Below, one piece after another: positions 1-35,897 of a stretch of DNA of 64,000 nucleotides. Position 1 is the first letter of the stretch. Each line of letters starts with the position of its first letter. The notes beneath the pieces were generated by a model. That model worked only from the letters and a program-made list of their open reading frames with translations. It was not told the DNA's origin and searched no databases. Origin of the DNA: Monosiga brevicollis MX1 (Eukaryota; Opisthokonta; Choanoflagellata; Craspedida; Salpingoecidae); the NCBI RefSeq assembly GCF_000002865.3, contig NW_001865042.1:223447-287446 (forward strand), given 5' to 3'. Both the position numbers and the translations under genes were made by a program.

Positions 1-862
1 GGTGACGTCATCCTGCGTGCCAATACCGGGGCCGAGGCCATTGCCGTCGATGGCTTTGCCTACACCCACCCAGGTCTCATTACAGGAGTCGCACCCTCCG
101 TCGGTGTGATGGGCACTCGTGTCACGCTTAGCGGTCGAGATCTGCTGGGCGGTGGTGCAAGTCTCGCCGCCGTCACGCTGGCGGGCGTGCCCGTGGCTAA
201 CGTGCGCTTTGCCAACGAATCACTCGTGATTCTGACAGCCAGTGGTCATGCAGTCGCAACCGCCCCTGGCATTGTCGAGCTGGTGGCCTCGTCCGGTGCC
301 ACACACACCACGTACAACGCCTTCCGCTACGCCTCCCCGCCTGTCGTCACCGCTTTCGAGCCTTCCCAGGGGTTTCGCGGCACCATCATCACTGTCACCG
401 GAAGCAATCTCTTGGCCAGTGGTGCGGCCATCCAGTCCGCCACGGTTCCGGGGGCAACCAATCTGACCGTGATTTCGGCCAGCTCTAACCGCCTCGAATT
501 GCGCGTCCCCCCCGAGCACGACGTGTCTGCTGCCGCGGGTCCCATTGCCGTTGTGGCTGACACCTTTGGCGCCTATGCTTCAGAGTTCAACTTCACCTTC
601 CTACCACCGATGGCCATCACTCAGGTGACGCCCACCGCGGGTAAAGTTCGCGACATTGTGGTTATCCAGGGCGAGCGTTTGCTCGGCGGCGGTAACGTGT
701 CCCTCGTCGAGGTGGCCGGCCGCCCTGTGCTTGTTTTGAACGCGTCGGACGATGCCATTACTGTACAGCTGACACTTAATGAGCCACAGACAGGTGACGT
801 TGTGGTGCATTCCACCACTGGCGCGCTAACGTCGGCCTCAGATGCCTTCACATATGCCGCCG
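1..862 (+). other. C-terminal end of an IPT/TIG repeat array in giant gene 1
   Basis: Three complete IPT/TIG repeats and the tail of a fourth. Each begins with a P-x-x-G-x-x-GT-x-V-T-x-x-G core (for example near bases 90, 360 and 625), continues with LLGGG-like and AGVP-like strands and ends with an SGA-type turn. IPT domains are immunoglobulin-like folds of cell-surface receptors and some transcription factors. The same repeat type makes up almost all of the neighbouring gene at 36271-53920. More repeats probably lie upstream of base 1. Confidence 0.85.
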
Positions 863-3800
863 TCAACAAAGCTCCCGTGCTGGTCATTGCCAACGCCAGC
901 ACTCCTGAAGACACACCACTGGCGTTGCTGAATCTTTCAGTGTCCGATGCCGACCTGGCCGATTCAGCTGGGCGCCTCTCGCTTACGCTCAACGTGGACG
1001 CTGGCCAGTTTGTGTTTGACGCCAACGCTGTTGGACCCATGCTACAACTCAACGGAACTGTTCCCGAGCTCACTGCGTGGCTCACTGATCTCATCTTTGT
1101 GCCCGCACCGAACATGTTCGGTCCCGTGCATCTTGTTATTGCTGCCAACGATAATGGTCACACGGGCAGCCCCGGCCCTCGTGAGACCATGGCCGCGGCT
1201 GTGATCCAGGTCACACCTGTGAATGATCCGCCAATGCTGCCCAACACTGTGATCCAGCTACCAGCCGTGGCGGAGGACACGGCCGCCAACGACATTGCTG
1301 GTATATTCGTCAGCCAGCTCGTGGCTTTGGCGACGGATGTGGACTCCTCGCCCCTGGGCGTGGGGTTGACAGGTCAGACCGGGCAAACCGGCGGCCTGTG
1401 GCAGTATCAGCTGGACGCTTCAAATTGGACCGCCCTGGGCAATCTGTCTGACAGCTCGGCCTTGCTCTTGCCTGGCCGCGCGCTGATGCGCTTTGTGCCT
1501 GGGCCCAACTTCAACGGCGAGGTTGAGCTTGCCTTTCGCGCCTGGGATGGCTCTGCTTACGCAGAGTTGGCGCGGACCTCCATCGAGTTTTCGCCGAGTG
1601 GCTCTGTCAGTGCCAATGTCACCAGGGCACGGTTGGTGGTTGAGAGCGTCAACGACGTGCCAGTCGTCACGTCTGCAGTGACGCAAGGTACTTTTGGGGG
1701 TACTTTCCCCGTTGTGTTCTTGGAAGGCGGTGGCGCCACTCAGGTGTTGCCGCCCGACTTGCTGATCGAGGATGCCGACCATGCTGCCCTGGCCTCGGCG
1801 CAAATTATTCTCTCTGGGGCAAGGGATGGCAATGATGAACTTGTTACACTCGATGCCGTTGCCCTTGGCATCAGAGGTCTACAGGTTATTTCTGATTTGA
1901 ATGGCTCGCAGCTCACTGTCACCGTGCGACCTCGCACCGGTGTCGCGGTGAGCATCTCCTCTCTAACAGAGGCATTGCTGACAGCCCAATACCGCAATCA
2001 AGCCGATGAGCCCACGCTGGGCGCTCGCCTGCTGCAGCTCGTTGTGTTTGACGGCTTGGATTGGAGTCAGCCACTTTATTCCGAGGTGACCATCACACCC
2101 ATCAATGACCACGCCCCCGTGCTTGCCTTGTCTCCAACCGCACCACGCGTTGCGGTTGTCGAGGATACGGGACCGCTGGCCATATTTGATTCTGCCTCCA
2201 CTGGTGTCTCTATCAACGTTTCGGATGCCGACCACACGGGTTTCCTGCTCCAGGCCGCCGCCGTCGAAGTGCGCAGCACTTCGTCTACTGCGCTCGATGA
2301 AGTGGTCCTGCTCGTCAATGCGACGGGCACAAATCTCAGCTATTCTTATGATGCCGGTAATCACACCCTGCGCGTGACAGGTGCTGCCTATCCCGAAGTC
2401 TATGCCCAGGTATTGCGTTCGCTCACCTACAACGATGGCGCTTCCGAGCCCGTGGATGTGGCCCGATCTCTCCACATTCAGGTCTGGGATGAGAGTTATG
2501 CCTCCAATAGCGTTGTAATTGCCGTCGACGTGACCCTCATCAATGACCAAGCCCCCGAAGTCTACCTCGGCCCCGGTGGCGTTGTCAACTTTTCCACCAC
2601 CTTTCAAGAATCGGGCACGGCTGTGCCACTCGTAGCGCTCGATGCTGCGGTGGTTGATCATGACTCGGGCTCGTTCTCTCTCACCGGGCTCCATGCGACC
2701 ATCCTCAACGGGGTTGATGGCGTCCTGGAGCAGCTTGCCGCCACAGGCTCGGCAAACATCTCGGTCAGCTATGATGCGGCAACTTACGTGCTGACTGCCT
2801 CTGGCCATGCGACCGCGGCCGAATATACCTCAGTTCTTCGCAGTCTGAGCTACACCAACCTTGCAGACCGACCTTCTGATGCCAGCGGGCGTTTGATTCA
2901 GGTGCAGGCTTTTGATGAAGCCTTTACAAGCAGTCCAGCTGCCGTGAACCTCAGCATCATCTTCATCAATGACCCACCACAGATTTTCGTCGGACCTCCT
3001 CCAAGTGTTGAGATCGAGGGCCTGTACGTGGAGGGCGACAATGGCACCCTTATTTTTCCAAACGGTTCCTTGACCATCACGGATGAAGATCATCTGATGC
3101 TTACCAACGCGACTCTACGCCTCATCAACGCGCCCGACTTTGAGGCGGAGACGATTGAGCTTGATGTTCTAGACACGGGCTTGATGTACGTTTACGAAGC
3201 CCTTGTCAATCACAATCGTGGGCCGGGCGAAGGTCGCGTTGCCGCACACGCCACATTGCGCGTACCCGGTGTTGCGCCGAGTTCTTGGCGCAGCAGTGCT
3301 GAGGCCCAAGCTACCTGGGCTGCGGTTTGGAGCGAGCTTTTGGGAGCTCGGTTGGGTGTGACATCAGCATCGATCGAGGTCACCAACGCCACAGCAACGG
3401 CGGATGTCAATTCCAGCGCGAGTGAACCCATTACTGCGTTGTCATTCGTGCTGGTTGTCCCCGATAATTTTACGTCTCAGCTTGCGGCTGACGTGTCAAC
3501 AATCGTGGCTTCGGGCGATTTGCTCACCCTTTTGCAAAGCCGCAGTGGTGCATATTACTACGCCACAAACGTGTCGTTTGCCGCAGAGCCTGTGATCCAA
3601 GAGTTTGATGTTGTGGAATTTTTTGGGGTGGCTCACCTTACAGGTAGTGCTTCGCTCGAGGACTATCGACGGGTTTTACAGACAGCACGTTATCGCAACG
3701 CTGTTGCGCGACCCGGGTTACCGGACGGCCGTCCTCGTCAGTTTGAATTGCGCGTGTCCGACGGTGCGCTGGAGAGCAATGCGGCACACTCGATGCTGCT

Positions 3801-6232
3801 GTTCCAGCGCGTAAATGATGGCCCCTTCTTCCGGCTACGGGCGCCCAATGGTCAGCCCTTTACGGCAACCTTCCGCGAGGAATCTAGTGGCGTACATGTT
3901 GTCTTGGGCAACGCCTCGGTCCTGGACGCGGACAATACAACCTTGGTCGCACTGACCATAACGCTTTTGGGGGCACCTGATGGTGCTGCCGAGGGCCTCC
4001 GAGTGAACGCGTCTGGCCTCGACATCACGTCTAGCGGTGCGGGCCACGTACTCAACTTGACTGGTCGAGCGTCGTTGGCGCAATACACCGAGGCATTGCG
4101 GCGCATCGAGTATTTCAACGAGGCCGACGAGCCGGTTGACGTAGTGCGGCAATTGCATTATATTGCCGACGATGCCTTGACTCGGGGCCTCGCTGCCAGT
4201 AGCTTTGTGCGTATTCAGTTTGTCAACGATCCGCCCCGTTTGAGCCTGGGCACCGACCCTTCCGGCAATTACTCAACATCTTATGAGGAACAAGCCCTCA
4301 ACGTCGCTGTGGCGGGTCCTGGCGCGCTGATTGAAGATGACGATGATGCGCGTCTGTCGCGAGCCATTGTCACACTGCTGAATCCACTCGATGGCTCGGA
4401 CGAGTTTCTCTATGCGGCGGGCACGGCTCTGTCGGGTCTATCCATCTCGGGCAACAGGAGCACCGAGGTACTTTTGTCTGGCAACGGCACCCTTGCCGAC
4501 TGGACCCTAGCTTTGCAGTCTGTATTTTACGTTCATTCGTCCAACAATCCCACAGTGACTGCATCACGCATCGTGAAGGTGGTGATTTGTGATGCTTCAA
4601 CTATTGCCGAGGCCGCGGCTCCCTCGGAACCGCGTTTCGCTCACTTGGACATTCAGCCCATCAACGACGCCCCCTTTGTCAGGAGTCCATTGGCTGAGAG
4701 CAGCGGCGCCACCATCTTCTTTGAGGGTCGCGGGCCTGTGTTCATCGCCGAGGACTTGTCGGTTCATGATGATGACAGCTTGATGCTCACCGAGGCCACA
4801 GCTGTACTGCTCAATCCAGTTGACCGCGATGTGGTACAGCCAGAGTTGCTGGCCGTGAACACCACCGGCAGCGGTCTCGCTTTCTCATACAGCGTCAACG
4901 GTCTTCTGCGCCTCAGCGGGCCTGGCAGCACGGCAACCTACACGTCCGTTCTGTCCACGCTGACTTATGAAAATACGGACGCCAATCCCTCTCATGTCCA
5001 GCGCCTGGTCGAGGTCCAGGTCTCGGACGGCGCGTTGAACTCGATGGCCCTTCAACTGCGCGTCAACATTTCAAGTCGCAACGATGCGCCAGTCATCGAT
5101 CTCAATGGCGCAGACGCGGTGGGTCTGGATCATGCTACAGTGCATCTGCAGGGTAGCTCGGGCGTGCCTCTGATGAATGCGGCGACCACTCTCTTGTACG
5201 ATCCAGAGGAGGATTTGTTGGAGCGCGTGGATGTGCAAATCGATCCGCTTCTGGATCAACCAGCAGAGTGGCTAGTCATGACGTACGAGGAACCCTCGGT
5301 TGGAATCATGCTGGCTGACCGCATGGCTGTTAACACTCCCATCACGTCAAGCTGCGGCGTGCAAGGTCACTGCGTCAAGGCCACTCTCTCCCTCCCGGCC
5401 GGCGCCGGCGAAACGGTCGCTGATGTGGCCGTACACATGGTTATTGAGCACCCCAACTTGAATGACCTGGTGGTGTATCTGGTTCACGAGGCCCGGCGGA
5501 TTACCCTGCTGTCCAACGTCATTGATCCGTCGCAGACAGGGGTCAATCGTTTCTGCTCTGCCGCCAACTATCAAAGCGTTGTCTTGACCGACGATGCTGC
5601 AACGGCCATTCAGACCACATGTGCCAACAATCTTCGCGGTGCTTTCCTACCGCTCAACAATTTGGCGCAATATGCTGGGCTTTTGGCTGGCGGAGATTGG
5701 ACTCTGGAGGTGTACGACACCAACACGGGATTCTCGGTTGGAACGTTCGTGTCGTGGGGGATTGTCGTTGCCACGGGCTCTCGCACGACGTATACCCAGC
5801 AAGCTACGCCATTTTCTGCTAGCGAAAGCCCCATGGAATTGATCTTCAACGTGGTCGAAACGGGTCTGGTTGAGGACTTGGACATTTTTGTCCAGCTTAG
5901 CACCGATGACGCACATGGCATGGTTCTCGAATTGGAGAGTCCCAGAGGGGTGATTGTGCCGCTGTGGGCTGCTGTTGACAACTGTGGCCTCGACGCGACA
6001 GCTCTTTATTTCGATAGTGCTGGCGTGCATGACAATGCGTCGGTCTGTTTGCATGGCGCTAGAGCCTTGCTGGACGTTGGGTTTGGAGCAGCGCTGGTGA
6101 GTGAGCAGGTGGCAACTGGTGCTTGGACCCTTCGGTTGACGACTGCGGCTGCCGGTACCCTGGATCTGGCGCAACTCAGATTCAAACTACGTACGTATTC
6201 TTTGCCATCGCTGTCGGCCTCTGACGTGGGGG

Positions 6233-6283
<51 letters not shown>

Positions 6284-9200
6284 CCCCTCGTTTGGTTTGT
6301 GTGCTGCCCCGTTCTTGCTTGCCGGCTCAACTCCCATTTCTTGCTCTGTCCTATTGGCCTCTACTGGCTTCTTCTTTTTGGCGCCTGTTTTGAGTGCCAT
6401 GATGTGGTACAGCCTCACAAATGGATGGATTGCGGCCCTGGTTCAAATGTAGGTCCCAACATTGAGTCTAGTTTCTCGCCCGCGACGGGCCTGCTGTCTT
6501 TGACGGGGCGTGACACGGCTGCAGCCTACCTTCTGCTGCTTTCTTCCTTGGTATATGTAAACAATCAAACAGTACCAACCGATGTCACACGCAACATCAG
6601 CATCGTGGCCACCGATGCCAGCAACAGCTCTGCACCAGCCATTGCCTTTGTTAGCATGCACAATGCTCCCCTGCTTTTCCTAAATGGCACTGGCTTGGGT
6701 GGTCAGCGCGATCGTTTTTTGACGTATTCGGAGGACGTCGGCCCTGCTTCTTTGCTATCCTCAAATAGCTTGTATGGCTACGCTGACGATCTCATCCAGA
6801 GCGCCACGGTGCGCATCGAGAATGCCTTTGACGCCACCAATGAATCTGTGGCTCTCGATGCAACCACTACTGGGGGCGCCGTGTCCGTCACCGGGAGCGG
6901 ATCGCACAGCATGCTTGCGTCAGGCGTGGCACCCATCACGACCTACCTGGCCCTGCTAGCCTCATTGAAATATGATAACGTTGCGCAGAACATGACAGGC
7001 ACTGAGCGTCTCATCTCAGTCGAACTGAACGATGCTGCGGGTCTCCCCTCCATTCAAGCTTTTATTCGTGTGAGCATGGTGCCCGTCAACGACCGACCCC
7101 ACATCTTGGATCCGCGGTTGCTTGGGGCAGGGCCTCGGGTTTCCTGGACCGAGAATGCAAACGCCACCGCGCTAGCTCCTCAGGCAGCGATTTTTGATGA
7201 GGATGACACTGCGTTTTCGCGCATTGTTGTCAGCATTATGCCCCCGCTGGATGGGTCGGCCGAGGTGCTCACGTTTCTAAACGGAGCTGGTATCGTGGCC
7301 AGCAACACCTCACTCGTTGGAGATGCACTTGTTTATGACTACGACGTCACAGGCATGGCCACCACTCACGAGTCAGCCTCGGAGCTGATTCAGGCCTTGG
7401 CTTACCATAACGCGGCAGATGAGCCAACTGCAGGCTCGCGGAACGTTACGATCGTGGTCTACGACGCCCAGGGATTGGCAAGCGCACCGCTTCACATTTC
7501 AATCGCTGTTTCACTCGTCAACGACAATGCGCCTGTGCTCGCACTGACGCAATCGGTCGTTGAGTTGGTGGAGGATTCGGGTGTTGTAAGTGTGCTCGCA
7601 GGCTCACTGGCAGCCACGGATGCGGACGTGCACGATCTTTTCCCTATGACTGCAGCTACAGCTGTTCTGAGTAGCCCGGATGCCGCATTTGAGCGTCTTG
7701 TTGTCAACGCGTCTGCAGGAGCCCCTTCACTCGCTCTGATGTACGACAACAATACACACACACTCTCAATTCAGGGCCAAGCTGAGCTTGAGGTATACGA
7801 AGCCCTGCTCAACACGCTCACGCTAGTTTCGATGATTGAGGAGCCGTCGCCTACAAACCGTACCGTGGCTATTACCCTCACTGATCAGGCTCACGTCAGC
7901 AACCTAGTTCAGGTGGTTGTTACCGTCCGCCTGATCAATGATCAAGCCCCCAAGCTAGATCTCAATCCCGTGTCAAATTCCAGCGATGGCTCGGTCACTT
8001 TTATTGAGGAGGGCACTGCTGTTGATGTACTGCCTGGTGGCACACGTCTCACTGATGCGGACAGCGGTGAGCCTGGGCAGTATCCACGCCTGCTACATCG
8101 TGTCGTGTGTCAGCTTGCTGCTCTTGATGGTGCGTCGGAAGGGCTGATCGCCGGTAACCACACCGGCAGTGTGGCCATAGCGGCTGGCAACAATTCTCAC
8201 GAGATTATCTGGGAGGGACCAGCCATGCCGGCGCAGTTTGAGCCAGCCTTGTCGACCATGGCGTACTTCAATTATGCTGATGAGCCCGCCTATCCCCGGA
8301 TGCGCACCATCAATTGTACCGCTTTCGATGCCTCTCTGGCCTCGGAGCCTGCTTTTGTGACTGTAACCATACAATCGGTCAACGACGCCCCACAGCTGGA
8401 CTTGGATCCCCTAAATACAGGCATTCACAAGTACAGCCAATACGCTGAGGGCGGGGGTCCTATGCTACTCCTTGTTGATGGGGTCACGCTTGTCGATGAC
8501 GACGACCTCACCTTGACATCGGCGTGGGTGCGCCTGCTCAACGCCCCCGATGGATCGGAGGAGATGATTTGGATAAATGAGACTGCGACTGTCAGCGTGC
8601 ACCCCTATCATCACGGGCTCGTGTTATCTGGCAATGCAAGCTTGACGGAGTATGCCAATGCGCTGGGGACTCTCGGATACACTCACACCAACGCGCATCC
8701 CGGAAATCCTAGTGCGGGGGTACGTGAAGTACACGTGGCTGTCTCTGATGGTCGCCTCAACGCCTCTACAGCTGTCATCTTTCTCGACTTTGATACGGTC
8801 AATGACCCCCCTATTGTGGATCTCAGCCCGGGGGATGAGACATTTGACTTTGCCACCTCATTCATCGAGGAAGGTAGCCCAATTGCCATTGCAGCGGCCG
8901 ATGCGACCGTCATGGACATTGACAGCCCGCTGTTGCAACGTATCGAGTTTGTCATCACCAACGGCGCTGATGGGAATCTGGAGGGCTTTGACACCGATAA
9001 CGCGACGCTGCTGTCTGAATTGGAGGCGCTCAACTTTACCATAGACTATAATGAGGCCTCCTACACGCTCACCCTGCAAGGTGAAGCAACGCCGGTCAAG
9101 TTTTCCAGCATTTTGCGCTCAGTGCGCTACTTTAATCTTGCAGACGAACCCAACTTTTCGACTCGTGCCGTGGAAATCCAAGTCACTGATGTGCTTAATG

Positions 9201-12200
9201 CGACATCCGTCTCACGTTACGCCATGATTGAGATGGTGTCGGTGAATGATGCCCCACGCTTGACCACTGCTAGTGTCAATCCTTCGAGCTTTGTGGAAGA
9301 CGCTGGTCCCATTACTTTGTTTACAGCTGGAGTTGTTGCCCAGGACGATGATGGAGACACCTATACGGTGATCAGCATTGCGTTGAGCCCTTTGCTCGAC
9401 AGCGATCTACACGAGGTGCTCTCGATTAATAATATGACAAGCCAGGGCCAGAGTGACGCACTAAGCTTGACGCTGACAGGTGCGCGATCGGGAGCGGAGG
9501 TTGAAGCCTTACTTGCCAGTCTGCAATACGTTAATTTGGCAAACGCTCCTCATGAGGCTCCGCGCCACGTAAGCGTTCGCGTCATGGACGAGTTTGGAGC
9601 TTGGTCCAACGCCCTGAACGTTTCATTCACTGTTGTGGCCAGCAACGATGCTCCCTTGCTTGTTGCCACAAATATCTCCTTGCCTGCTGTTGATGAGGAT
9701 GGTCAAGTTGTGAATGCTGATTCGAACACCCTTTGTCTCCCTCTCATCACCGAGCCAGACCTGCAGCCTCTGCGCGGTGTGGCCATTGTTGCTGCTGATA
9801 CAGCAAACGGGGCTTGGTATGCGACTCTCAGCAACTCTAGCAGTTTGCTCATCGAGAACGTTGGCGAGACAAATGCCCTCCTCATACCCTTGAAGTCACA
9901 CAACGTGACTGTGCAATTCGTTCCTCGACCAGACTTTTATGGCGAGGCCTCCCTGGCCCTCAAGGCCTGGGACCAGACGAGCGGCGCCCCGTGGGCGCCA
10001 GGGGCCGACACCAGATACAGCAGCAATGGTGCATTCAGCTTGAATCAAGTGCATATCGTCGCGACAGTGTTGTCTGTCAACGACGCGCCCGTGGTACAAC
10101 TGCAGGGTGCGCTCGGGGTCAACAACAGTGCTGCCTTTGTGGAGGAGGCCGGTGCCGTGTCGGTGGTCAATGCGTCGGCACTATCACTGACAGACGTTGA
10201 TCACTACCAACTGCAATTTGTGGACGTGACACTGCAGAACCCGATGGATGGCGCGGCCGAGCAGTTGCTGGTGGACGAGGGCGTGCCTGGCTTGCTCGTG
10301 ACGGAGACACGGAACGCGAGCATGGTACATCTGCGTTTGCAGGTGGGCAACAACGCGTCAGACGCCTCACACCCGCCTGATTATGCGAATCTGGCACAGC
10401 GAGATGATCAAATGGTAGCACTGGAGACGGCGCTGCGATCGCTGCAGTACAATAACACGGCGTTGGAGCCGACCCTGGCAGAGCGAGTCTTGATGGTGAC
10501 TGCGTTTGATGGAACTGCTTGGAGCACACCGGCCTGGATCGTGGTCACGGTTGAGCCAGTGAATGACAATGTACCCGTATTGGTGATGGGTGATGCACCG
10601 GCGGCTTACGTGGAGAACCAAGGGCCTGTGACATTGGTGAACGGGACGGCGTTTGCGTTGCACGACGCGGATCACAATGACGTGTTTATGCTTGAGGCGG
10701 CTTCTGTGGCGTTGACAGCAGGTGCCGTGGATGGCGCAGCAGAGACGTTGAGCGTTGTGTCCCAGGGCAACGTGGAGGCGATGTACAATGCCAGCACGCG
10801 TGAGCTGGTGTTGAGTGGCGCGGACAGCGTCTCGACGTATGCGGCAGTGCTGGCGAGTTTGACATACAATCATACCGGCGCAGAGCCCACGCCCGGCGTG
10901 CGTGAGGTGACGGCGTCTGTGTTTGACGGGGTGTTTGCATCAAGCCCGGCGGTGTTTTCGCTGGTGGTGGAGGTCATCAACGACCGACGGCCGGCGGTAT
11001 TGTTGAGCGGTGTCGCGCTGGATGCGGCGGCAACATTTGTGGAGGAGCAAGAGACGTTTACGAGTTTGGCTGCGTCTGCGACGGTGACAGATGCGGACAG
11101 TGGTGCGTTGAAATTGGTTGAGCTGCGTGCGCGGATCGAGGATGGCCTGGACGGGGCGCTGGAGGAGTTGCGCGTGGCCGACGGTGGTGCCCTGTACTCG
11201 GTGGCGTATAATGCGACTGGTTACGAGCTTGTCGTTCGGGGAGAGCTGAGCGTGAGCGAGATGGAGGGCGTGTTGCGGTCGCTGTCGTACATTAATCGGG
11301 CAGACGAGCCCTCGGGAGCGGCTGTGAATTCGCTGGGCGCCGATGGGGCAGCCTCACGCAGTGTTGTGGTGACGGTGGACGATGGCGCACACGTCAGTGT
11401 GCCGGCCCGCGTGAACCTCACCATTGACATGGTCAACGACCTTCCCGTCTTGGATGCCAATGGGCCCATGCCTGGCGTTGACCATCTCATCGTGTTTGTC
11501 GAGGAATCTGCAGCGCTTTCGCTGTTATCGTCTGATGCCTGGCTGTACGATGCTGATGACAGTCTTCTTGCTGATGTCACCATTGCCGCAACTGGACTGG
11601 GTGACCTTCCCATGGAATACCTCAATCTTTCAACGAGTGGAACAATCATTTCGGCGTTTAACAACGGCAGTTTCGTTCGTCTTGAAGGACCAGCCCCGCT
11701 GGCTGACTTTGATGCGGTGCTTCGCAGCGTCACGTACTTTAACGGGGTTGTCGACCCCTTGCTCCCGTCGGCAGGCGCTCGCGTCTTCGAGATCACAGTC
11801 AACGATGGACAAGGCACTGCGGTCACTAGTGTGGAGGTGGAGTTTGTACGTATCAACAACCCACCCCGTCTCGACCTGAATGGTCTGCTCGTGGGTTTTG
11901 ATAACGCTGTTGCCTTTATAGAGGAGGGTGCGCCCGTCCTCCTCGCCCCAAGCGCCAATCTTAGTGACAGTGACAACGCCACACTCAGCTGGCTGCAGCT
12001 GTCCATTGTGGACTCCCCCGACATGGGTGCTGAGCTCCTCAGTGCTTCGCCTCCCTCTGGCCTGACCGCAGTGTGGGACCCGTCATTGGCGCGGTTGACC
12101 GTTTCTGGTACCGGCACGGTAGCCGACTATCTGCAAGCGTTGCGGGGCACGGCATTTGTCAATTCTCAAGACGAGCCTGCTGCACCCTTTTCGAGGGTCA

Positions 12201-24200: not shown

Positions 24201-27200
24201 AGCCCACGCCAGGCGTACGCGCCTTTGACGTCGTGGCCTTTGACGGTCAGATCAACGGAACTGGTTTGGAGCTTTTGGTCAACGTAACGCTGATCAATGA
24301 GCACGCTCCTGTCCTTGATGAGGGAGCTTGTCAATGCACTGCTTTGCAATGCGACGTGCACCCTGGCTTCCTGCCGACACGGCCCTGGTGCTATGTGGAC
24401 GCACTACGCTGTGCCGACACGTTTGGTTTTGAGAACAATCAACACTACTGCACGCCTCGGATCTTCAATGAGAGCGGCGCGCCACTCGTGCTGGTCCCCG
24501 ATGTGATCCTCACCGATGCTGATGAGCATCCCAGTTTCATGATGCACGAGGCCACGATTACGCTCTCCCGATCAACCGAGGCAATGCTCGCTAATGATAA
24601 CGAAGTTCTTTTGTTTGTGAACCTTCTGCCGCCCCAATTATCTTTCAATTGGAATGCTAGTAGTGCGCAGTTGCGTCTTTCTGGTCCCGGATCAGTAGCA
24701 GAGTATCAGCAAGTCCTTCGCACCGTGGCCTACCTGAATTCCGAGGATGAGCCGACCCCCGGTCCGCGACAGGTTTCAGTCCAGGTCTACGACGGTGCAG
24801 CTTGGTCCAACGGGCTGACTGTAGAGCTCAACATATCTCTCATCAACGACCAGCAACCGGAGGTTTACTTTGGCTCCAATGCCTCCTCCGTGGAGCTGGG
24901 CCCCATGATTGAGGAGGGCCCAGCAGTCAGTTTGGCCGATAGCGGTGTGCGTGTTGTTGACGCCGATTCGGGCAGCTTTCCTATTCTGGGCGCCACGCTG
25001 GTGATCACAAATTGGTTTGATGTTGAAGAAGATCTTTTCCTAGACCCCACCGTCGCGACTGCTGCTGGGCTTGACTTGATGTACAACGCTTCAATGAAGC
25101 GAATGGAGCTGGTGGGGCCCGCCGCGCCTGCTACTTACACCGAAGTCTTGGCGCATGTTGCTTACCGCAATTTTGCAAACGAGCCATCCTCTCCCGATCA
25201 CACACGCCATATCGAGGTCGTGGTCCAGGACGCAGACTATCAAAGCCGCTCGGCTGTGGCCTTTGTTCCTATTGTGATGATGAACGACGCACCACGCGTT
25301 TTGCTGCACAACGGAACACAACACGCTATTGCTGTGACCCGCAGCTACGCCGAAGGTGATGCCGCTGCGGCCATTGTCACTTCTGAAGCGCGCATTGAAG
25401 ACGACGATGATGCACGGCTTGTCACCATGAGCATAACGCTCGATGACTTTGACGTCGGCGCTAACAGCGAGCATCTCGAGTTTGGATCAGACGTGGCCGC
25501 TGCGGCTCTGGACGCGGGCCTCAACTTGTCGTCCACGCTCAACGGCACTCGTCTCACGGCACATGGCTTGGTGGACTTGACTGTTTATCAAAACTTACTT
25601 CAGGGCTTGCAGTATGTGAATGCGGATACGCGCAACCCATCTCGTGGTGTACGTCGCGTAGTCATTGTTGTTACGGACCCGGCGGGTAACGAAAGTGCCC
25701 CAGCGACAATCTTTGTCAAAGTTAGTCCTGTGAACGATGCGCCCTGGGTCGATCTCAACGGCGAGGTGACGGGCACAGACACTGCTGTCACGTTTCTTGA
25801 GGAGGGGCCGCCTGTGGTGCTGGCAATGCACGCCAATGTCCTCGACGTGGACAACGATACTTTGAGTGAGTTGACAGTCCAACTTAATGTCAGACCTGAC
25901 GGAGCCCTGGAAGGCCTCTCCGTAGGCAATGCCCACGGTTTGAATGTGACAAACACGACCCTGGGGCTCATTGTGCAGGGACGAGCAAGCGTAGAGACAT
26001 ATGCTGCGGTCCTACAGTCGATCATGTATTACAATCTGGCTGATGAGCCCATCTCCACGCCTCGTGTGGCACGTGTGAGCATCACAGATGGCTTGGCTAC
26101 GAGCCTCGTGCGCAGTGTTACGGTTTCCATCGAAACTTTCAATGATGCGCCCATCTTGACGCAGACGGGCCCGAGCATGCTTAATTACATTGAAAACGCC
26201 GAGTCAGTAACTTTATTCCCAGGCGTGTTCGTCTCGGACACGGACAGTGCCGTTCTTACGGAGCTGCGAGTGTGGCTAAGCAATGTGCAAAACGATGGTA
26301 GTGAATCCGTCTTTTCCGACCCCTCCGCAGCTACGCGCTACACAGAGAGTGCAGTCAGCAATGCGACAGCTCGTGTGTATCTTCGAGGCACGGCCTTGGC
26401 CAATTGGCAAGCCTTTTTGGCTCAGTTGCTGTACACCAACTTTGCAGATGAGCCGGTGGCCTCGGAACTCCGAGCCGCTCACCTTTCCGTCGTCGACTCG
26501 GGCAATGCTGTGAGTAACGTCGTGACTGTTTGGATCAATGTCACAGCGCGCAATGACCCGCCTATGCTCTCAGCTGGTACCGTGGTTGACATGTCAACTC
26601 TTCTCGAGGACGATACGGCTGCAGCTGGCGACACTATTGCGCAGCTATTCATGGGCGTGACCAGTGATCCGGACGCCAATGCCCAGCTGGGTGCTGCCAT
26701 AGTAGCCGCGGACAATGCACATGGCGTTTGGCAGGTATCCTTCAACACCAGTGGGTGGATGTCGCTGCCGGAGCTTGTCGCCGGTGATGCGTTTCTTCTC
26801 GGTGCTGCCGCGCGTGTCCGCTTTGTACCGCACCAAGACTTCACGGGATGGGCCAGCTTTTCGGCACACGCTTGGGATCGTACGGATGAGCGCCACGTTG
26901 GTTCCTTGGCGCAAACGTCGGACCTGTTGGCACCCACGGGATCTTTGAGCAGCATGACGGCAGAGATCCGCGTGCATGTCTTGCCGGTCAATGACGCACC
27001 CGTTCTTCATCCGACCGCTCTGCTACCCTTGCCCGTGGTAGAGGAGGACGTGCCGCTGGTGGCCAATTTGGGTGCAGCAGTTGGCGAGTTGCTCGGTCCT
27101 GCTGCAGTGGGCGACGTCGATGCCAACGCCACCCACGGCCTTGTTGTAACGTCTTTGTCTGGTGCTGCGCAGAGTACCGGTGAGTGGCAGTGGCAGCGAG

Positions 27201-30200
27201 CCCGTGACGCGGGTCAAAACTGGTCAAGCGTTGTCGTTGGTTTGTACCTGAGCGAAAGCGCCCGCTTGCGTTTCCAACCTAGCCAAAACTTTTACGGCAA
27301 TGTCACGCTGGGCGTGCGGGCTTGGGATCAAACCATGGGCGTGGAGGGGGCAGTTGTCAACACGTCAGATCTTTCAATTGGCGGCACAGCTGCGCACTCC
27401 CTTGCATGGGGTGAAGTGGTACAATCAGTCCTTCCCGTCAACGACGCCCCTGTCTTGCGGTCCCCTCAGCCGTGGAATCTGGCCGCGATCTTGGAGGACG
27501 TGCACACCGATGCAAACCTGGGCTTTGTAGTTGGTGAGATGGCCGCTGCACGTTTTGCGGATGCTGACAACCTTGACGTGCTGGGCGCGGTTGCGTTGCA
27601 CGTCGACAACCGTCTAGGGAATTGGCAAGTGCAAAGCACAGCCAACGGCTTGTGGACCGCGCTGTCAGCTGGCGACGCGTTGCGCCCCGATGCTCGTGTC
27701 CGCTTTGCACCTGCTCTCAATGCTCACGGTTCGGCGGAGCTGCAGGTGTTGGGCTGGGATCAAAGTCGCACCCCCACACTGGGTGGCTCTTGGACCGCCA
27801 TGGACAGTACATCGGTCGAGAACATTAGCATTGTTGCGACTGTTTTGGCCGTGAACGATGCACCCGTCCTGCTTGACGACTTGATGCTGGACTCGATTGC
27901 GGAGGATCTTCCATCTAACGTGAATCCCGGCCGCGCCGTGCGAGAGCTCGTCGTAAGCAGTATCACGGATGTGGACGGCGACACCTTGCTGGGACTGGCC
28001 GTCGTTGGCAGTGCCTGTACCACGGGCACTTGGCAGTATCGCCTCAGCAATCAGTCTGCTTGGACGCCATTCTTCGGCAACGTCCTACCCAACGGTGCCT
28101 TCTATCCCGCCGATGCCACCCTTGAAGCAGCTACGCTATTGGGCCCCGCTGCGTGGATTCGTTTCGTGCCCCATCAAGACTTTTTCGGTGCGGCAGCGCT
28201 CCGCGTTCGCGCGTGGGACATGACAACAGGATATTCAGGTGCATACGCTGTCAACGCTTCTGAGGCGTCGTCGGCCTTTTCTGTTGCCTTGGCCAACGTC
28301 ACGGTCATTGTGCAGCCGGTCAACGACCCACCCGTGCTGTCGGTTGGCGTCAGCAGCTCAACTAGCCTATCTTATGTCGAGAACGATGGGCCCTTATCTA
28401 TCGCACCCCACGCCGTGCTTCGGGATGTCGATGATGCGGTCATGGAAGTCATTCACATTGTGCTCGAAGGCAATCTGGATGGCTCCGAGGAAAACCTTAA
28501 AGCGGATGCACACTCGGCGTCAGGGTTTGTCTGTACGGGTTTCGGGGGTGCATCTGACCTCTATTGCTCTGGTGCAGCCACTCTCTCGGCAGTTCAGGCT
28601 CTACTGCAAAGTGTGCAATATGAGCACCACGGCGTGGAACCCACTCCTGGCCGACGCATCGTTGTGCTCGCTGTTTCGGACGGGTCTGCGGTGGTCAATT
28701 TGACCGTGACAATTGATGTGGCGACCATCAACGACGAGACGCCGCAAATTTGGCCATTACTGTTTGAGCACGAGCTGTCAGAAGGCTCTCCGGCCTTTGC
28801 ACCCTTTGCCTCGGCCACCCTCACGGACTTGGACGACAATGCCGTCTACCAGTTGGCCAGCCTAGAGTTTGAAGTCTTTCCCCTTTGGGACTCGGCGCAA
28901 ATCCAGCTCAACGGATCCGTTGTTGTGCCATCGCGGTATGGTTTGGTCTCAGTGGACTCACCCATGACCGTCGCCTCAGCTCAAGACCTGTTACGCTCTT
29001 TGACCATCATTGATACCAACACGCAATGGCAGCCCCGCAGCGTCAACGTGACGGCCGTGGCGTTTGACGGCTTACATCGCTCAGTGCCCGCCGTGGCTGT
29101 TATTCAGCTGCTGCCAGTCAATGATCAAGCACCCTCTGTATTTTTGGCGGGGTCCGTGCTGGAGCAGAACGCTTCTTCCAACCCGTTTGTGGAGGAAGGC
29201 GCGGCGGTCGTTCTGGTACCCGAGGCTGTCATACAGGACGAAGACACGGGTGATTTTCCAATCGTTGAGCTTGGCGTGCGCCTTCTCAACCCCGTGGATG
29301 AGAGCGAAGAAGGACTGACGTTGGATATCGGCTTGGCGCAAGGCTTTGGCTTGGCCGTGGTTGCGGACGGACCCGTTCATTCCAATACGGGCACCGCCCA
29401 TGGATGGCTCACAACGGGACCGGCCACCCCCGCCACATACCAGGCAGTGCTGCGCACACTGCAGTACCGTCACGCAGGCGAGGAAATGTCCGAGCCCATG
29501 GAACGCCTCGTCGAAGTCTGGGTACGCGATGAGGACTGGACCAGTTCTGTGTCGGTTGTACTTGTACCACTCCAGCCCATTAACGATGCGCCGTCCATCA
29601 CCTTTGCGGACCAAAACTACGTGCGCGTACTGGCGTACGTCGAGGGTGATGGGCCCGTTGCCATTGCAGATGAAGGAACGGTCATCACCGATGCTGATAA
29701 TCTGCGGTTGCAGAGCTTGTCCGTGCGTCTGGATGCCCGTCCAGACGGTGAGGCCGAATTTCTGTTCCTGGAATCCACTCTGGCGAGTGCTGTTGGGGTG
29801 GAGGTTAACAATTTGGGGAGTGAGGTGATACTTTCAGGCCCCGCCACGCTGGCCGAATATGCAAGCCTCTTGCGTCAGGTCACGTATGAGCACGGGGATG
29901 CACATCCAGGCAATCCCAACTGGTCCGCCCGCCGCATTGAAATTACGGCCATGGATGAAAATGGTGGCATGAGTTTGGAGGCCGTTGTGCATGTGAGCTT
30001 TGAGGCGGTGAATGACGCGCCCATTCTTGACTTGAACGGCCCTCAACGCGGCACCAACTTTTCGGTTGACTTTGTCGAGGAAGGGCCTTCCGTGGCGATT
30101 GTGGCAGCAGATTCCATGACCTTGGTCGATGTGGACAGCGAGCGTCTGACCTGGGTAGAAATTGAGCTCATGAACATGCCCGATGGTGAAGCCATGGAGG

Positions 30201-33200
30201 CCGTTTACGTGGATGCACCCCGCTCCCTGACTGTGCAGCGACATGGCGCGCTCCTGCGTGTCGAAGGCAACACGTTTACCTCAGTGTATCAAGACGTTCT
30301 TCGTACCGCCCGTTACGAAAATCTGGCTGGCGAGCCATCTGAGGAGACGCGCGTCATTGAGGTCCGAGCAAGCGATGGCGTGGCCGTGAGCGTACCTGCG
30401 CAATCCATGGTGCGTATTGTTTTGGTCAACGACGCCCCCGTCTTGACCAATGGAATTGATACCCTGACCGTAGCAGAGAATAGTGAGATGTTGTTGTTCA
30501 GCACTCTAGTGATCAGCGACCCCGATGACCTCTTCCTTCGCCGTGCCACCGTCGTCGTGACTAATCCGCTGGACGGGCTACTGGAGAGCGTGCAGCTAGC
30601 CCCGGACGTTTCTCTTCCTTCGGGATTGTCCTTGACGGTGCAACACGAACACTTGCTCGTGCTTGAGGCCACGACCGCCAACATCACTGTTGACACCTGG
30701 CACCAGGTGCTTTCTCAGGTGCGATTCGTTACTGACAGTGACAAACCCCATCCCGAGGCGCGCGACATCACGTTGCAGGTCGAGGATATCGCCAGTTCCT
30801 CCAGCAACCTGTTGCGCGTAGATGTCTCGGTCCAACCCGTCAACGATGCCCCTCAGCCACGCGCCTCCTACCCATACGCACATGGTGTCATAAGTGTCCC
30901 GGAAGACGGCCTCCGCGTTTTGCCTATCCTTGCTCATCTGATTGATGCAGACGACGTACTGACGGCCGAGCATGTTTCCATCACAGCACCACCCTCGAAC
31001 GGTCAAGCTTCCGTGCTTCCCGATGGGTCCATTCAGTACACCCCTCATCCCGACTACTTTGGGTCGGATGCCCTGGCTTTTGCAGTCTGCGCCCGCGACG
31101 TTTGCTTTGATGATTCCATTGCTCTGAACGTAACAGCCATCAACGACCCCGTAACCGCGAGTCCTGTCCAGCTCGTGTGCACCGAGGATGACCATGTTGC
31201 CGTTGATCTTCAAATGCACATTTTTGATGTTGAAGACAGTCCGTTGGCCCGTGTGCACGTTTGGGTAGACTCGCCTCAGCACGGACGTGTCTACTGGGCC
31301 GCAACCAATCTCGGTGAGGGAGAAGATGACGACGACGAGGATGTGGCCAGTGGTAGCGGCAGCGGTGACGTTTCCATGCTGGACAATGACGATGAAGGCA
31401 GTGGAGACAGCCTCTTCCCGGCGTCCACTTCGGTCCCGTCGGATGATCAGTATGATCTGACGCTAGTCTATGTGCCCAGCCCCAACTATGCGGGAACGGA
31501 TGGCTTCAATTACACGGTCTGTGATACGGACGGCGCCTGTGCCACGGCAACCATCACAGTGGTGGTAGTAGGCGTGAATGACGTGCCCGTTAGTACGAAT
31601 GCCACCATTACGGTGGCTGAGGACGATGAGGGGGCGTTGAATGTCACTGGCCTCGTTTGGGACGTAGAAGAGCCAGCTTCAGCTCTGACTGCCAGCATCG
31701 TACAAAACCCGACCCATGGCACGGCCACCCTTTCTGGGCCCTGGCTAATCTATCTGCCAGCGGTCAACTTCTTTGGGACCGATGTCATCGTGCTTGAGTT
31801 TTGTGATGCTCAAATGGCATGCTCGCGTGCACACGTGCTTGCAGCCGTGACCCCGGTCAACGACGCACCTGTCGCTCGCAATGCTTCCCTGTGGGTGCGT
31901 GAGGACGAGCAGCTACAGATCAATCTACTTCAATATGTGGAGGACGTCGAAGACCAGTTGACAGGGGCGGCCGTGACCGTCGTTGATGGTCCCGCCCACG
32001 GCGCACTTGCATACACGGCAGCAACCGGCACAGCCATGTACACCCCCGAAGCCAACTACCATGGCCCGGATATGGTTGTGTTTGAGGTTTGTGACTCGAT
32101 GTCAGCATGCCGCCTCGGGCACTTAGCCATTAATGTCACGAGTGTCAACGACGTGCCTCAAGTCAATGATACCTCCGTCCAGATTATTGAAGATGGAGCT
32201 GCCACTGTGGCTCTGGCACCCCTGGTTTGGGATCGCGAGTCAGGACTCGCGGCCATCTCATTCGGCGTTGCACAACCGCTGGCACACGGTCAGGCCACCA
32301 TCAACATTGAAAACCAATCTGTTTACCTCATGCCCACAGCAGACTTTGCTGGCACCGATGAGCTCATCTTTGAGGCGTGCGACTCGCATGGCGGGTGTGC
32401 CGTTGGTCGGATCACGATTGAAGTACTCCCAGTCAACGACGCGCCCGTGGCGCTCAACGCCAGTGTCAGCACCAACGAGGATGAACCTTTCCTCTTCCTC
32501 ACTCGCGACTACGTTGCGGACGTGGACAACACGGACGCTGAGCTAATCGTGTCGATTCATACACGTATGTTGGCCCACGGTCAGCTGGAGGTGGATCAGC
32601 GCACGGGCATCATCACGTACACCCCCACGCCTAATTTCTGGGGTGAGCAGTGGTTTACCTATCAGGTCTGTGATCCTGCTGGCCTGTGCGACTCTGCTTG
32701 GGTCAATGTCACGGTGACGAGCGTGAATGACGCCCCCGTTGTGACGTCGTATGAAGGTCGTGTGCTTGCCGGGAGTGATTTGATCATTGACGTGCTGTCC
32801 TTGACCGAGGACCGCGATGAGCTTGCACCTTCAGACGCAGCACACGTGCGTGACACGGCGTCGGTGGGGCTTGTGCGGTCACCGACCCACAATACCGCGG
32901 ACGTTTTGCTTGTGGATGAGCGCTGGGTTCTTGTATATCATGCGCAGAATGCAACCTCAGCATCAGGCTTTTATGGTACCGAAACATTTGAATTCCAAGT
33001 GTGCGACTTGGCCGGTGCATGCGACAATGCGACTGCCCTGGTGCATGTCGACATTCTTGGTCCGGCGATCACATCCGTGCTGATCAGCGATCCAGATGAC
33101 TCTGATTTTGTCGCCTCGGTGGGTGACATCATCACAGTCACCTTTGCGGAACCCACGAGCATGGTCGCAGGAACGGTGTGGAATCACGCAGCCTTGCAAA

Positions 33201-35026
33201 CCAAGCTAGATTGGCCCGAAGCCTTCTGGGAGACGGCGGTCTACAGGGGTGTCTGGAACACCAATCAGACGTTGCGCATCGAGCTGGTGGAATGTACGTT
33301 GTGCGAGCCGACGGTGGTTGCGACACAAACACCGAACGATGTGGCATTGGCGGTTCCACGTCGCCTCGAGCTACAGCTGCTTCCTGGTGCTGGTGTGCGC
33401 AATGCAGCCAATGACTCCTTGGCCAGCGTGGCCTTGGCTCCCTTCCAAGGAAACTGGGGCCGGGCCGTACCGGGTGTGAAGAACATCATCATTGACTTTA
33501 GCAACGCCGTCACCGACGAGCCCGACCGCGCCTTCCCAACAGGCACTCGCATTGTCATTGTTTTTACGGGTCCTCTGAACCAGCCTTTGTGTGACGAAGT
33601 GCGCCAGGTGGTGATCGAGGCCATCATGTCGTTCGGCGAAGGCGAGTCATTGGGAGAGATCAAGGGCATGTGGGGCCAATCCACGGGGGATAATTGCCCC
33701 GTTCTGGTCGCTGATCAGGCGCGCCGCCGGCGCAGCTCCGCGGGCTCGCCAAACCAGTTGACCATTGTGATCGTGGACAGCGGCTCCCAGACGATTCAAG
33801 ACCAGCAGAGTCTGGCCGATGCATTGCAAATAAGCAATCAAGCTCTGGTGGATGGACTCATCAACGCATATCACAACCAGTCGCTTGCCAACCTCACGGA
33901 CGGTCAGGACCCAAGCCGCAACCCCTTGACCGAGGGCTCCACCAGTGTGGGCCCGTTTGTGGTCTCCCTGATTGCGGCCGATCCAGATAACCGTGATGCC
34001 ACGTACTCGAGCGGTGACACCATCACGGTGGTCTTTTCAGACGCCGTGTCCCAGGTAGACGTAAGCACCAAGGCTGCGGTGGACAACGTGCTGCAATTTG
34101 TGCAGGACAATCAGGAAGTATCACTGGGTGTGGCGTATTACGGCGGCTGGGCGGCACAGGATACCCTGGTCATCACCTTGACGGATGTGACGGATGCAGC
34201 ACCCACCCCCGCAGTAGGCGCACTACGCGTGCGCATTCTGCCCAACCGCCTTTCTCTGGCCTCTGAGCCAAACATCACCAACTCAGAGTTGGTGAGTCGA
34301 GAGGCTCTCACGGGAAATTTCGGCCGCCCGCACCGGACATCGAGCATCATCTACATTATTCCTATCATCTGCTTCATGGCTGCGCTACTGTTTGCGCTTG
34401 TGGCACTCTTGAAGCAGAAGGCCACTTCGCGTCGATCGACGCCCAAGAAGCAGCCGCTCGTGGACTTTGAATTCAAGGCCCCGCCGGCGGCCGCTTCTAT
34501 GCGCGCCAATCACGATCCTTTCGCCATGGTGGAAACGCGTCACCCAAGCGAGACCACAACGGTTGGGTACGACACGTTAGCCCCCGCATCGGAGGTTATG
34601 AGCACGCCTCGCGCGTCCGTTTTTGGGGACCCGCGGGGCTCAATTGCTACCGATGCCGCGCCCATTGCAGCCAGCCTCCCACCACTGCGATCACCAACCC
34701 AAAAAGTGGCTCGCACGGGAGCCCTGCCGCCGTTGAGCATGCCTGCTGTGCGTCGATCCACGCGCACGGCCGCACCCTTTCCTCAATTGAAGCCCGTGTC
34801 TTTCAAGGGTGGCCCTCCCGGTGCATCTCCAGACCCCTTCCGAGCGGCTGGACCGGGTTTTCAGCCCAAGCGGCCCTCGCTGCCCAGCATGGGCAGCATG
34901 CCCCCTCTGCGACCGGCCATGATGCCGCCCTTGGCGCGCGCACCTGGTTTGCCTCGTCCTGCCGTGATGCCGACACTCAACTTGCCAAAACGTTCAATCA
35001 CTGAAGAAACAGAGGGAGATAACTAA
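1..35026 (+). CDS. Giant IPT/TIG and cadherin-like repeat transmembrane protein (5' partial)
   Basis: Probable cell-surface adhesion or matrix protein; exact role unknown. The frame is open from base 1 with no start, so the gene begins upstream. Joining 1-6190 to 6453-35026 gives 34,764 bases, exactly 11,587 codons plus TAA. In order: three and a half IPT/TIG repeats (residues 1-290), about 70 cadherin-like repeats ending in VNDAP, INDPP or similar linkers with acidic DxDN-type motifs, two P-domain modules (about 1771-2064 and 7350-7650), seven tandem-95-like repeats (about 10200-10930), two DPDN-type domains, a transmembrane helix (11362-11383) and a Pro-rich tail. N-x-S/T sites are very frequent. 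The architecture predicts a type I membrane protein with a huge ectodomain. A bacterial-style adhesin ancestry is possible because several repeat types resemble those of large bacterial surface proteins. The join is well supported; the function is inferred. Confidence 0.9.
3234..3605 (+). other. Unassigned domain inserted in a cadherin-like repeat of gene 1
   Basis: About 125 residues separate the two halves of one repeat: the DFEAETIELDVL strand before it and the AHLTGSASLEDYRRVLQ stretch after it. The insert contains a Ser/Ala/Trp-rich helix, a LLGARLGV segment, alternating strands rich in Asn and Thr, and a second amphipathic helix. The alternating helix and strand pattern suggests a ferredoxin-like or SEA-like fold, but I cannot assign a family. 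Confidence 0.4.
5310..6190 (+). other. P-domain (Homo B)-like module 1, nested in a cadherin-like repeat
   Basis: Residues about 1771-2064 of the fragment. The first half has the P-domain signature: V-x-V-x-I-x-HPN-L-x-DL-x-V-x-L strands, a CANNLRG segment and a GGDWTLEVYD strand followed by G-x-F-x-SW. A second, more divergent P-like fold follows to the splice donor at 6190. P-domains accompany proprotein convertases and also occur alone in large extracellular proteins. No protease domain is visible. The module sits in the loop between the DG-x-x-E-x-L strand and the L-x-L-x-G strand of one cadherin-like repeat. Confidence 0.7.
6191..6452 (+). other. Intron (262 bases) joining the two giant reading frames
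   Basis: Donor GTACGT at 6191, acceptor TGTAG ending at 6452. Phase 1: the C at 6190 plus GT at 6453 make an Arg codon followed by Pro-Asn-Ile. The equivalent place in the second P-domain module (near 23222) reads Arg-Pro-Asn-Ile without interruption, which confirms the junction. Without splicing the upstream frame runs through poly-Phe and stops at 6393. Confidence 0.92.
6240..6283 (+). repeat. Poly-T tract of 44 bases inside the intron
   Basis: Uninterrupted run of 44 T. It lies about 170 bases before the acceptor, so it is unlikely to be the polypyrimidine tract itself. Its exact length in the assembly should not be trusted. Confidence 0.97.
10065..11442 (+). repeat. Internal duplication, copy A (1,378 bases)
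   Basis: Matches 14463-15840 with a constant offset of 4,398 bases, an exact multiple of three. I found no mismatch, and the encoded residues are the same throughout. It covers three complete cadherin-like repeats, from a VLSVNDAP linker to a DMVNDL linker. Identity stops abruptly at both ends. Confidence 0.95.
14463..15840 (+). repeat. Internal duplication, copy B (1,378 bases)
   Basis: Second copy of 10065-11442. Upstream, 14316-14371 also matches 9921-9976 with one mismatch, but at an offset of 4,395. The roughly 90 bases between that short block and the exact block are unrelated in the two copies. Confidence 0.95.
22308..23220 (+). other. P-domain-like module 2, nested in a cadherin-like repeat
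   Basis: Same arrangement as the module at 5310-6190. There is an NSSITTACE start, V-x-LSHEHVGDL-x-V-x-L strands, a CALGNQGL segment, a DGEWTIIVVD strand, and then a second divergent P-like fold ending in GTWTLRV. It leaves the repeat at an Arg-Pro-Asn-Ile junction near 23222 with no intron. The host repeat resumes with a TLTLRGADSSAAY stretch. Confidence 0.7.
24329..24451 (+). other. Six-cysteine insert in a cadherin-like repeat
   Basis: Cysteine spacing is C-x1-C-x4-C-x12-C-x6-C-x12-C with a PWCYV motif in the middle. It lies between an INEHAPVLDEG linker and a FNESGAPLVLV strand, so it is a small disulphide-bonded module placed at the start of a repeat. The surrounding repeats have almost no cysteine. 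The PWCY motif recalls kringle or fibronectin type II modules, but the spacing is different, so I leave it unassigned. Confidence 0.55.
30862..33055 (+). other. Seven tandem-95-like repeats with conserved cysteine pairs
   Basis: Each repeat has an early acidic ED motif, a G-x-A-x-hydrophobic strand, a Y-x-P-x-x-N-x-x-G motif and an F-x-V-CD-x-x-G-x-C end, closing with VNDAP or VNDVP. This is the repeat plan of many large bacterial surface proteins. Six of the seven have C-x5-C at the end strand and the first has C-x4-C (31088-31105). The pair probably forms a local disulphide. Confidence 0.75.
31313..31440 (+). other. Acidic Ser-Gly insert, candidate glycosaminoglycan attachment site
   Basis: A low-complexity insert inside the second tandem-95-like repeat. 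It has seven consecutive acidic residues, then three Ser-Gly pairs in a row (31349-31366) followed by Asp, and a further EGSGDS at 31394-31411. Ser-Gly flanked by acidic residues is the classic xylosylation context for chondroitin or heparan sulphate chains. Attachment itself is inference. Confidence 0.5.
33061..34330 (+). other. Membrane-proximal region: two DPDN-type domains around a middle domain with an RRRR site
   Basis: Two related domains start with DPDD-S-D and DPDN-R-D followed by a GD-x-I-T-V-x-F strand (33085-33470 and 33980-34330). Between them lies a domain of about 150 residues containing a four-arginine run at 33722-33733 followed by Ser-Ser. This could be a furin-type processing site. 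I know similar DPDN modules from protist surface proteins but cannot name a family. Confidence 0.5.
34346..34411 (+). other. Transmembrane helix of giant gene 1
   Basis: 22 uncharged, mostly hydrophobic residues (Ile-rich first half, Ala/Leu-rich second half) flanked by Arg-Thr-Ser-Ser outside and Lys-Gln-Lys plus several Arg/Lys inside. This is the only strongly hydrophobic segment near the C terminus and predicts type I orientation. Confidence 0.9.
34412..35026 (+). other. Cytoplasmic tail with DPF, Yxx-hydrophobic and proline-rich motifs
   Basis: About 204 residues, rich in Pro, Ser, Arg and Met. It contains two DPF motifs (34514-34522 and 34832-34840), one YDTL (34568-34579), and repeated LPPL, MPPL and PPLRP stretches. 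DPF binds the AP-2 appendage and Yxx-hydrophobic binds adaptor mu subunits in known eukaryotic proteins. The Pro-rich stretches could bind SH3 or WW domains. No kinase or other enzyme domain is present. Confidence 0.7.
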
Positions 35027-35576
35027 CATGACCCTTGCCACTTTTTTTGTTCGTACCTTTTGTTCGTACCTTTTCCCGTCGCATGTGCTTCTTTTGACCT
35101 TTGCTTGTGAAGCTGCTCGAGCAATGGAATCGCCCGTTGCCCAACGCGTTTACAACTTTGTTTGTATATGCTTATGTCATGTGTGTTTTTGTGTTTTGTG
35201 TCTGCGCGCGTGCGCGCAAGTGATTTGAGCGCAACCAATTGATCTTCTGCTCGCTATATGCGAATGCACCTCCAGAATGTTCATGCATCACCTGCGCATT
35301 TGAATCCCGTGTATCATCTTTGGCAGCGATCCAAACTCATCAGCAGTCAAGTCACAGGTGTTCCATTATGTGCCTTGCACAGATTTGTCAGAAAGTCTTC
35401 CAGCTTGACGAGGGACAAATTTGAGTATTGTTTTGCGCTTACTTTCTCATCCTGACCTTCAAGCTTTATTTTTATTTGCATGCATGCAACATCGGCGACT
35501 GTCAAGTCAGCCTGTAGCAACACCCCTGGGCTGCATGGCTACGAGCGTCAACCTATTTCTCTTGTTCTCTGTATCC

Positions 35577-35692
35577 CTGTCTCTCTGTCTCTCTGTCTCT
35601 TTGTCTCTCTGTCTCTCTGTCTCTCTGTCTCTCCGTCACACACACACACACACTCTCTCTCTCTCTCTCTGTCACACACACACACACACACA

Positions 35693-35747
<55 letters not shown>

Positions 35748-35773
35748 TCTCTCCGTCTGTCTCTCTCTCTCTG

Positions 35774-35846
<73 letters not shown>

Positions 35847-35855
35847 CTCTCTCTG

Positions 35856-35892: not shown

Positions 35893-35897
<5 letters not shown>

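Follow-up and report, generated by a model that had tools for sequence, protein, structure and literature searches.

The window, by which we mean the whole analysed stretch of 64,000 nucleotides of the Monosiga brevicollis MX1 genome (C53:223447-287446; 39.5 Mb on 57 contigs), holds in its first 35 kb most of one intact three-exon gene, predicted from DNA alone, for a giant protein of IPT/TIG and cadherin-like repeats. Positions refer to the window, negative values lie upstream of it, and features are on the + strand unless stated otherwise. Joining positions 6190 and 6453 yielded a single frame of 11,587 residues with its stop at 35026, within the window, in agreement with the original prediction of one gene across this junction that still lacked its start. 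The start lies 1.8 kb upstream of the window, where an ATG at -1799 is preceded by an in-frame TGA 12 bases 5' of it and followed by MAFLVTAWRTVVALVTLLCATAHA, a plausible signal peptide. The complete gene model comprises exons of 454, 7,419, and 28,574 bases, a coding sequence of 36,447 nt, and a protein of 12,148 amino acids (aa) with a mass of approximately 1.3 MDa. Exon 1 (-1799..-1346) encodes the start and the signal peptide and is separated by intron 1 (-1345..-1229, 117 bases, ends GTACGC...CACAG) from exon 2 (-1228..6190, of which 1..6190 lies in the window), which begins in locus L002 within an open frame of -1289..6390. Intron 2 (6191..6452) has 262 bases, the ends GTACGT...TAG, and an extended stretch of T; it precedes exon 3 (6453..35026, stop codon 35024-35026).

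For intron 1, 12 other listed donor-acceptor pairs also keep the frame open; the pair -1345/-1229 was chosen because it is the only one that restores an IPT motif (GQHG|TYVTIRG). The junction 6190/6453 yields ...LRPNIESSF..., to be compared with ...ATRPNIASF... in the module's second copy, which is unspliced. As RPNI terminates both P-domain inserts of the protein, one of them without splicing, this junction has internal support. Exon 3 contains no in-frame stop, compared to about 336 expected from base composition (log10 P of finding none, approximately -149), which rules out a chance open frame and bears out the earlier claim that the last exon of 28,574 bases needs no further intron. It appears very unlikely that internal promoters or poly(A) sites divide the gene among several transcripts for shorter IPT-only or repeat-only proteins. 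Nothing positive points to such transcripts beyond the adjoining IPT-only giant gene, which demonstrates that modules of this kind exist alone, whereas the frame has no internal stop, the signal peptide occurs solely at the 5' end, and the transmembrane segment and tail occur solely at the 3' end. The occurrence of further IPT exons upstream was rejected: over 30 kb upstream, our own profiles matched exon 1 only (everything else at E ≥ 0.3), and no additional IPT or repeat relatives were obtained there. An open frame resembling cysteinyl-tRNA synthetase was seen by eye at approximately -10.9 to -7 kb. Rfam and tRNA scans gave no matches.

Using our own iterated profiles for four domain types, T (IPT/TIG), A, B, and C, we identified nine IPT/TIG domains together with 48 A, 13 B, and 10 C domains, a total of 71 putative beta-sandwich repeats, corresponding to the 'about 70 cadherin-like repeats' plus an IPT array estimated before. 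The A profile gave 50 hits for its 48 domains, two domains with two hits each being counted once. The N-terminal array of nine T domains (aa 46-845; 88-109 bits per domain) reaches into the window at 1..852 and is followed by one C and one B domain, block 1 (1708..7105, six plus three A), block 2 (7136..9661, six A), another B domain, and block 3 (10127..12697, six A). The middle part consists of four B domains, block 4 (14525..17152, six A), an alternation of B, C, B, C, and B (17153..19165), block 5 (19217..23866, six plus three A), and block 6 (23882..26569, six A). Four B domains (26570..28309), block 7 (28364..30856, six A), and seven C domains of the bacterial Big_9/Cadherin_4/tandem-95 type (30857..33070) lead to a membrane-proximal region, a transmembrane segment, and a tail. 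The A domains are approximately 125-150 aa long according to our profile. In both block 1 and block 5, the second of the three additional A domains is split by P-domain sequence (5353..6189, P_proprotein 33.1 bits, and 22355..23224, 41.4 bits; cut-off 21; boundaries approximate). A second P-like half within the first insert was seen by eye alone, and another A domain of block 1 (3016-3867, aa 1567-1850, exon 2) contains an insert of about 100 aa that is unlike the P-domain inserts. Public models for the domain types proposed by the original prediction all gave matches above their cut-offs: in addition to P_proprotein, PF01833 (cut-off 20.9) reached 68 bits in window:1-6189 and, for the exon sequence upstream of the window, 35.4 and 79.6 bits, and Cadherin_4 (cut-off 25.1) reached 45.5 bits over window:6455-20998 with its best stretch at the B/C alternation. 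In the C-terminal 4,675 aa, NCBIfam tandem-95 reached 291.9 bits over seven stretches (cut-off 90) and Big_9 238.6 bits; tandem-95 remained below its cut-off in window:1-6189 (53.5 bits) and 6455-13069 (73.5 bits). Because Pfam matches the 48 copies of the A domain weakly, this domain merits a model of its own.

The A domains are arranged in seven in-register blocks, each comprising six domains. Read by eye, the first and the second domain of every block are each followed by a linker with one extra residue (NDxxP type; 14 of 14 cases). Among 38 domains, the mean identity of domains at the same position in different blocks was 0.299 (102 pairs), compared to 0.264 for all other pairs (513), and none of 2000 shuffles of labels within blocks matched this difference. 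For positions 1 to 6, the mean identities were 0.287, 0.271, 0.322, 0.310, 0.346, and 0.257, respectively. This comparison leaves out all A domains that blocks 1 and 5 possess beyond their sixes (six in total), three domains of block 4 that are exact copies, and domain 4 of block 1, which is interrupted. As these two blocks each possess three extra A domains with a P-domain-interrupted one in the middle, they are likely to be related by an old multi-block duplication.

We also compared the DNA of four giant genes, including that of the window, with itself. In the window gene, a sequence of 1,378 bases at 10065..11442 recurs identically at 14463..15840 (offset 4,398 bases). The two copies agree in reading frame and domain phase, and their flanks are diverged at both ends. 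A paralogue on contig C33 carries a copy of 1,765 bases at 99.77% identity, and a giant gene on C55 one of 3,045 bases at 99.80%, both with an offset divisible by three; the IPT-only neighbour of the window gene displayed no block duplication. The occurrence of block duplications in three of the four giants examined indicates that recent in-frame block exchange is frequent in such genes. At C54:1457289-1470176, a frame of 4,340 aa with an IPT array has TIG places that recur with identical scores 6,978 bases apart, which suggests another recent block duplication.

Several points weigh against this picture of an array built from blocks in register. While the other A linkers outside positions 1 and 2 are short, that after the hit at aa 8188 is of the long type and that after aa 2595 is ambiguous; position 6 shows no identity excess and position 2 little; the register was set after the linker pattern had been seen; and the single exact copy of 1,378 bases could stem from an assembly fault. 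That the array is to a larger extent an assembly product, with the order or number of blocks wrong through near-identical repeats or with several genes fused, we regard as improbable. Sanger reads are typically shorter than the exact repeat, the copies of which lie 4.4 kb apart, and a run of 50 N follows 0.9 kb past the stop. Against an assembly product, the flanks of the repeat are diverged and phase and frame are kept, two other giants carry copies that are 99.8% identical and not exact, and one frame spans the protein from signal peptide to transmembrane segment. Moreover, the copied domains apart, the best match of each A domain is 29-43% identical, too diverged to be confused.

A Kyte-Doolittle scan (21 residues at a time) gave four segments exceeding 1.6. 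The highest value in the protein, 2.89 at aa 11,923, belongs to the C-terminal transmembrane segment (34343..34411), and because this value stands out, the membrane anchor is clear. The N-terminus scored 1.82 at aa 1, and calling it a signal peptide is plausible on account of its place and look as much as of this score; the two remaining segments (1.75 at aa 445 and 1.70 at aa 10,027) fall within repeats. Judged by hydropathy alone, the protein thus has the N-terminal signal peptide and single C-terminal transmembrane segment of a type I membrane protein. The anchor is followed by a proline-rich cytoplasmic tail of 204 aa (34412..35023), in which a simple pattern search found no N-glycosylation sequon, and preceded by a membrane-proximal region (33071..34342) with a weak match to Big_5 (E 0.016, below cut-off). 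In this region, RRRR at 33722-33733 (aa 11,715), approximately 200 residues N-terminal to the membrane, is the one place where the 12,148-aa protein matches RX[KR]R. The single-pass anchor suggested previously is encoded, but the mature protein may lose it. Cleavage at RRRR might render the product mainly a released or two-chain protein of the theca or extracellular matrix instead of an anchored adhesin, an alternative that we consider unlikely: RRRR is expected 0.02 times in shuffled sequences and its position close to the membrane would fit, whereas chance alone would yield 0.68 RX[KR]R sites in the ectodomain and the site may sit within a folded domain.

The repeats were then related to known families. 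The Pfam cadherin model PF00028 was not reported for window:1-6189 and 20999-35023 (E 0.01), for 6455-20998 and the upstream exons (E 0.1), or for 33 A-A pairs (E 0.1), and none of the 150 places listed in a genome-wide search lies in the window gene. Since PF00028 was not reported for the gene, 'cadherin-like', the term used in the original prediction, is right for its repeats, but 'cadherin' is not. An AlphaFold2 model of an A-A pair from block 7 (29603-30445) reached a predicted local distance difference test score (pLDDT) of 92, and the structures that match it comprise cadherin pairs as well as other beta-sandwich proteins. Single-sequence AlphaFold2 prediction gave a pLDDT of 43. A PDB sequence search with one repeat gave no match, and BLAST of the protein against itself returned no rows. 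The acidic positions of the A domain (E, DxD, D, ND), each conserved in 42-45 of the 45 A domains compared, resemble the Ca2+ sites of cadherins, to which they may be equivalent. Among the cadherins of choanoflagellates and animals are MBCDH, Fat, Dachsous, and CDH23, and the window protein resembles them in its long ectodomain with a single membrane pass, predicted to consist of beta sandwiches in tandem; the pair model aligns with extracellular cadherin domain pairs. However, it is far longer, its A domains measure approximately 125-150 aa, and Pfam cadherin, EGF, and LamG domains were not reported for the gene. The calsyntenin model CLSTN_C (cut-off 27) scored 51.7 bits for the C-terminal 4,675 aa and 29.8 bits for window:1-6189 and weakly matched eight of the 33 A-A pairs, but only partial stretches of the profile were involved, with a best E-value of 1e-4 for a single pair. 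It was not reported in window:6455-20998 at E 0.1, and neither a full CLSTN_C match nor a calsyntenin architecture was found. Tandem IPT/TIG domains within an ectodomain also occur in proteins of the Plexin, Met, and PKHD1 type; in the window protein, however, they represent nine of about 80 domains, and no Sema, kinase, G8, or PSI domains were reported for the gene. The C domains match tandem-95 and Big_9, as in bacterial adhesins such as SiiE, MpAFP, and tandem-95/CshA proteins, from which the window protein differs by its eukaryotic type I membrane anchor and the introns of its gene. In giant bacterial adhesins (SiiE, MpAFP), many Ca2+-bound immunoglobulin-like repeats are described as holding the tip off the cell in excerpts of PMC4083281, PMC5466336, and PMC7493085. 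MpAFP repeats are, in such excerpts, identical copies, whereas the A domains are mostly 29-43% identical to their best match and form six-domain blocks. None of the titles and abstract openings retrieved from open-licence literature names the gene, which may nevertheless have been published.

Giant open frames are not confined to this locus. Among the frames listed from searches directed at particular families or proteins, which are not exhaustive, the longest from stop to stop were 11,470 aa (C40), 10,648 aa (C55), 9,628 aa (window), 7,963 aa (C22), 7,375 aa (C40), 6,256 aa (C33), and 5,934 aa (C10). The window frame is thus the third-longest of those listed, and the frames on C40 and C55 rule out a size record. 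Its gene is one of several giant stop-free genes, in a group, the choanoflagellates, that excerpts of PMC5560861 describe as having many introns per gene. The protein belongs to the size class that the original prediction called among the largest expected in a protist, but it is not exceptional in its own genome. The 11,470-aa frame (C40, approximately 447,000-459,000) is stop-free and carries Pfam cadherin domains; that of 10,648 aa, also stop-free (C55:714436-746379; loci L044, L043, L042, and L036), belongs to another repeat family. The latter was rejected as a close relative, as it gave no match above 15 bits to our A, B, C, and T profiles; the Pfam TIG model matches three places near its end. 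A-type repeats also occur on C33, C10, C30, and C22. Pfam cadherin and A domains occur together in the C10 frame of 5,934 aa, and the C33 paralogue contains two AAABBB units in succession. The P-domain insert is not shared by this paralogue: an A domain is interrupted there too, but by no Pfam P domain.

Within the window, a second giant gene (approximately 36,200-53,920) adjoins the first, separated from it by a low-complexity sequence (35558-35893) and the run of 50 N (35934-35983). Its exon sequence, amounting to 5,515 aa, encodes 63 TIG domains and no other type. By eye, the gene has several introns as well as a putative signal peptide near 36.27 kb, and its frame ends at 53920 within a TIG domain. 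On the opposite (-) strand, an open frame of 1,034 aa (59369-62470) matches the CLASP N-terminal/TOG model at 42.8 bits. Elsewhere, PDZ domains occur at no fewer than 146 places in the genome, in line with the 178 given in excerpts of PMC8512817, and the PDZ domain of locus L016 is identical in 105 of 105 residues to PDB 6x1n, 'mbDLG-3'. That paper counts 6X1N among the PDZ structures of Monosiga brevicollis, which agrees with the origin of the window.

The structure of the window gene, its domain order, its architecture of six-domain blocks, and a recent in-frame block duplication were computed directly. We consider it rather probable that the product, of 12,148 aa, is a type I surface protein that acts as a Ca2+-stiffened adhesion fibre, possibly cut at its single furin-like site, and that it has grown by block exchange. 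Ca2+ bound at the A-A junctions would stiffen the chain of domains; cadherin domains are spaced at about 4.5 nm, and with some 80 domains the fibre would be roughly 0.3-0.4 micrometre long. The stalk would hold the IPT tip off the plasma membrane, where the tip may bind bacterial prey, matrix, or a surface nearby, and a furin-type cut near the membrane may free the fibre or leave a two-chain complex. Unequal exchange between blocks of several domains without introns, or conversion of such blocks, may have enlarged the array and would account for an exon this large that lacks introns. The most likely function would be that of a long calcium-stiffened stalk whose IPT tip serves in prey capture or attachment, and the protein represents a candidate for either process.

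More tentatively, the A domain might represent an unmodelled, pre-animal family of cadherin-related Ca2+ domains, with the giant genes encoding adhesins that vary in length as intron-free blocks of several domains are swapped in frame by continuing conversion. If this is true, fibre length and surface specificity would vary among strains or alleles, as they do in bacterial adhesins. Choanoflagellates are studied to learn what the adhesion proteins of animals did before animals existed, and a protein of 12,148 aa that mixes IPT, calsyntenin-like, and bacterial-type immunoglobulin-like repeats in a register of six would provide a testable example of how a fibre grows by in-frame block exchange.

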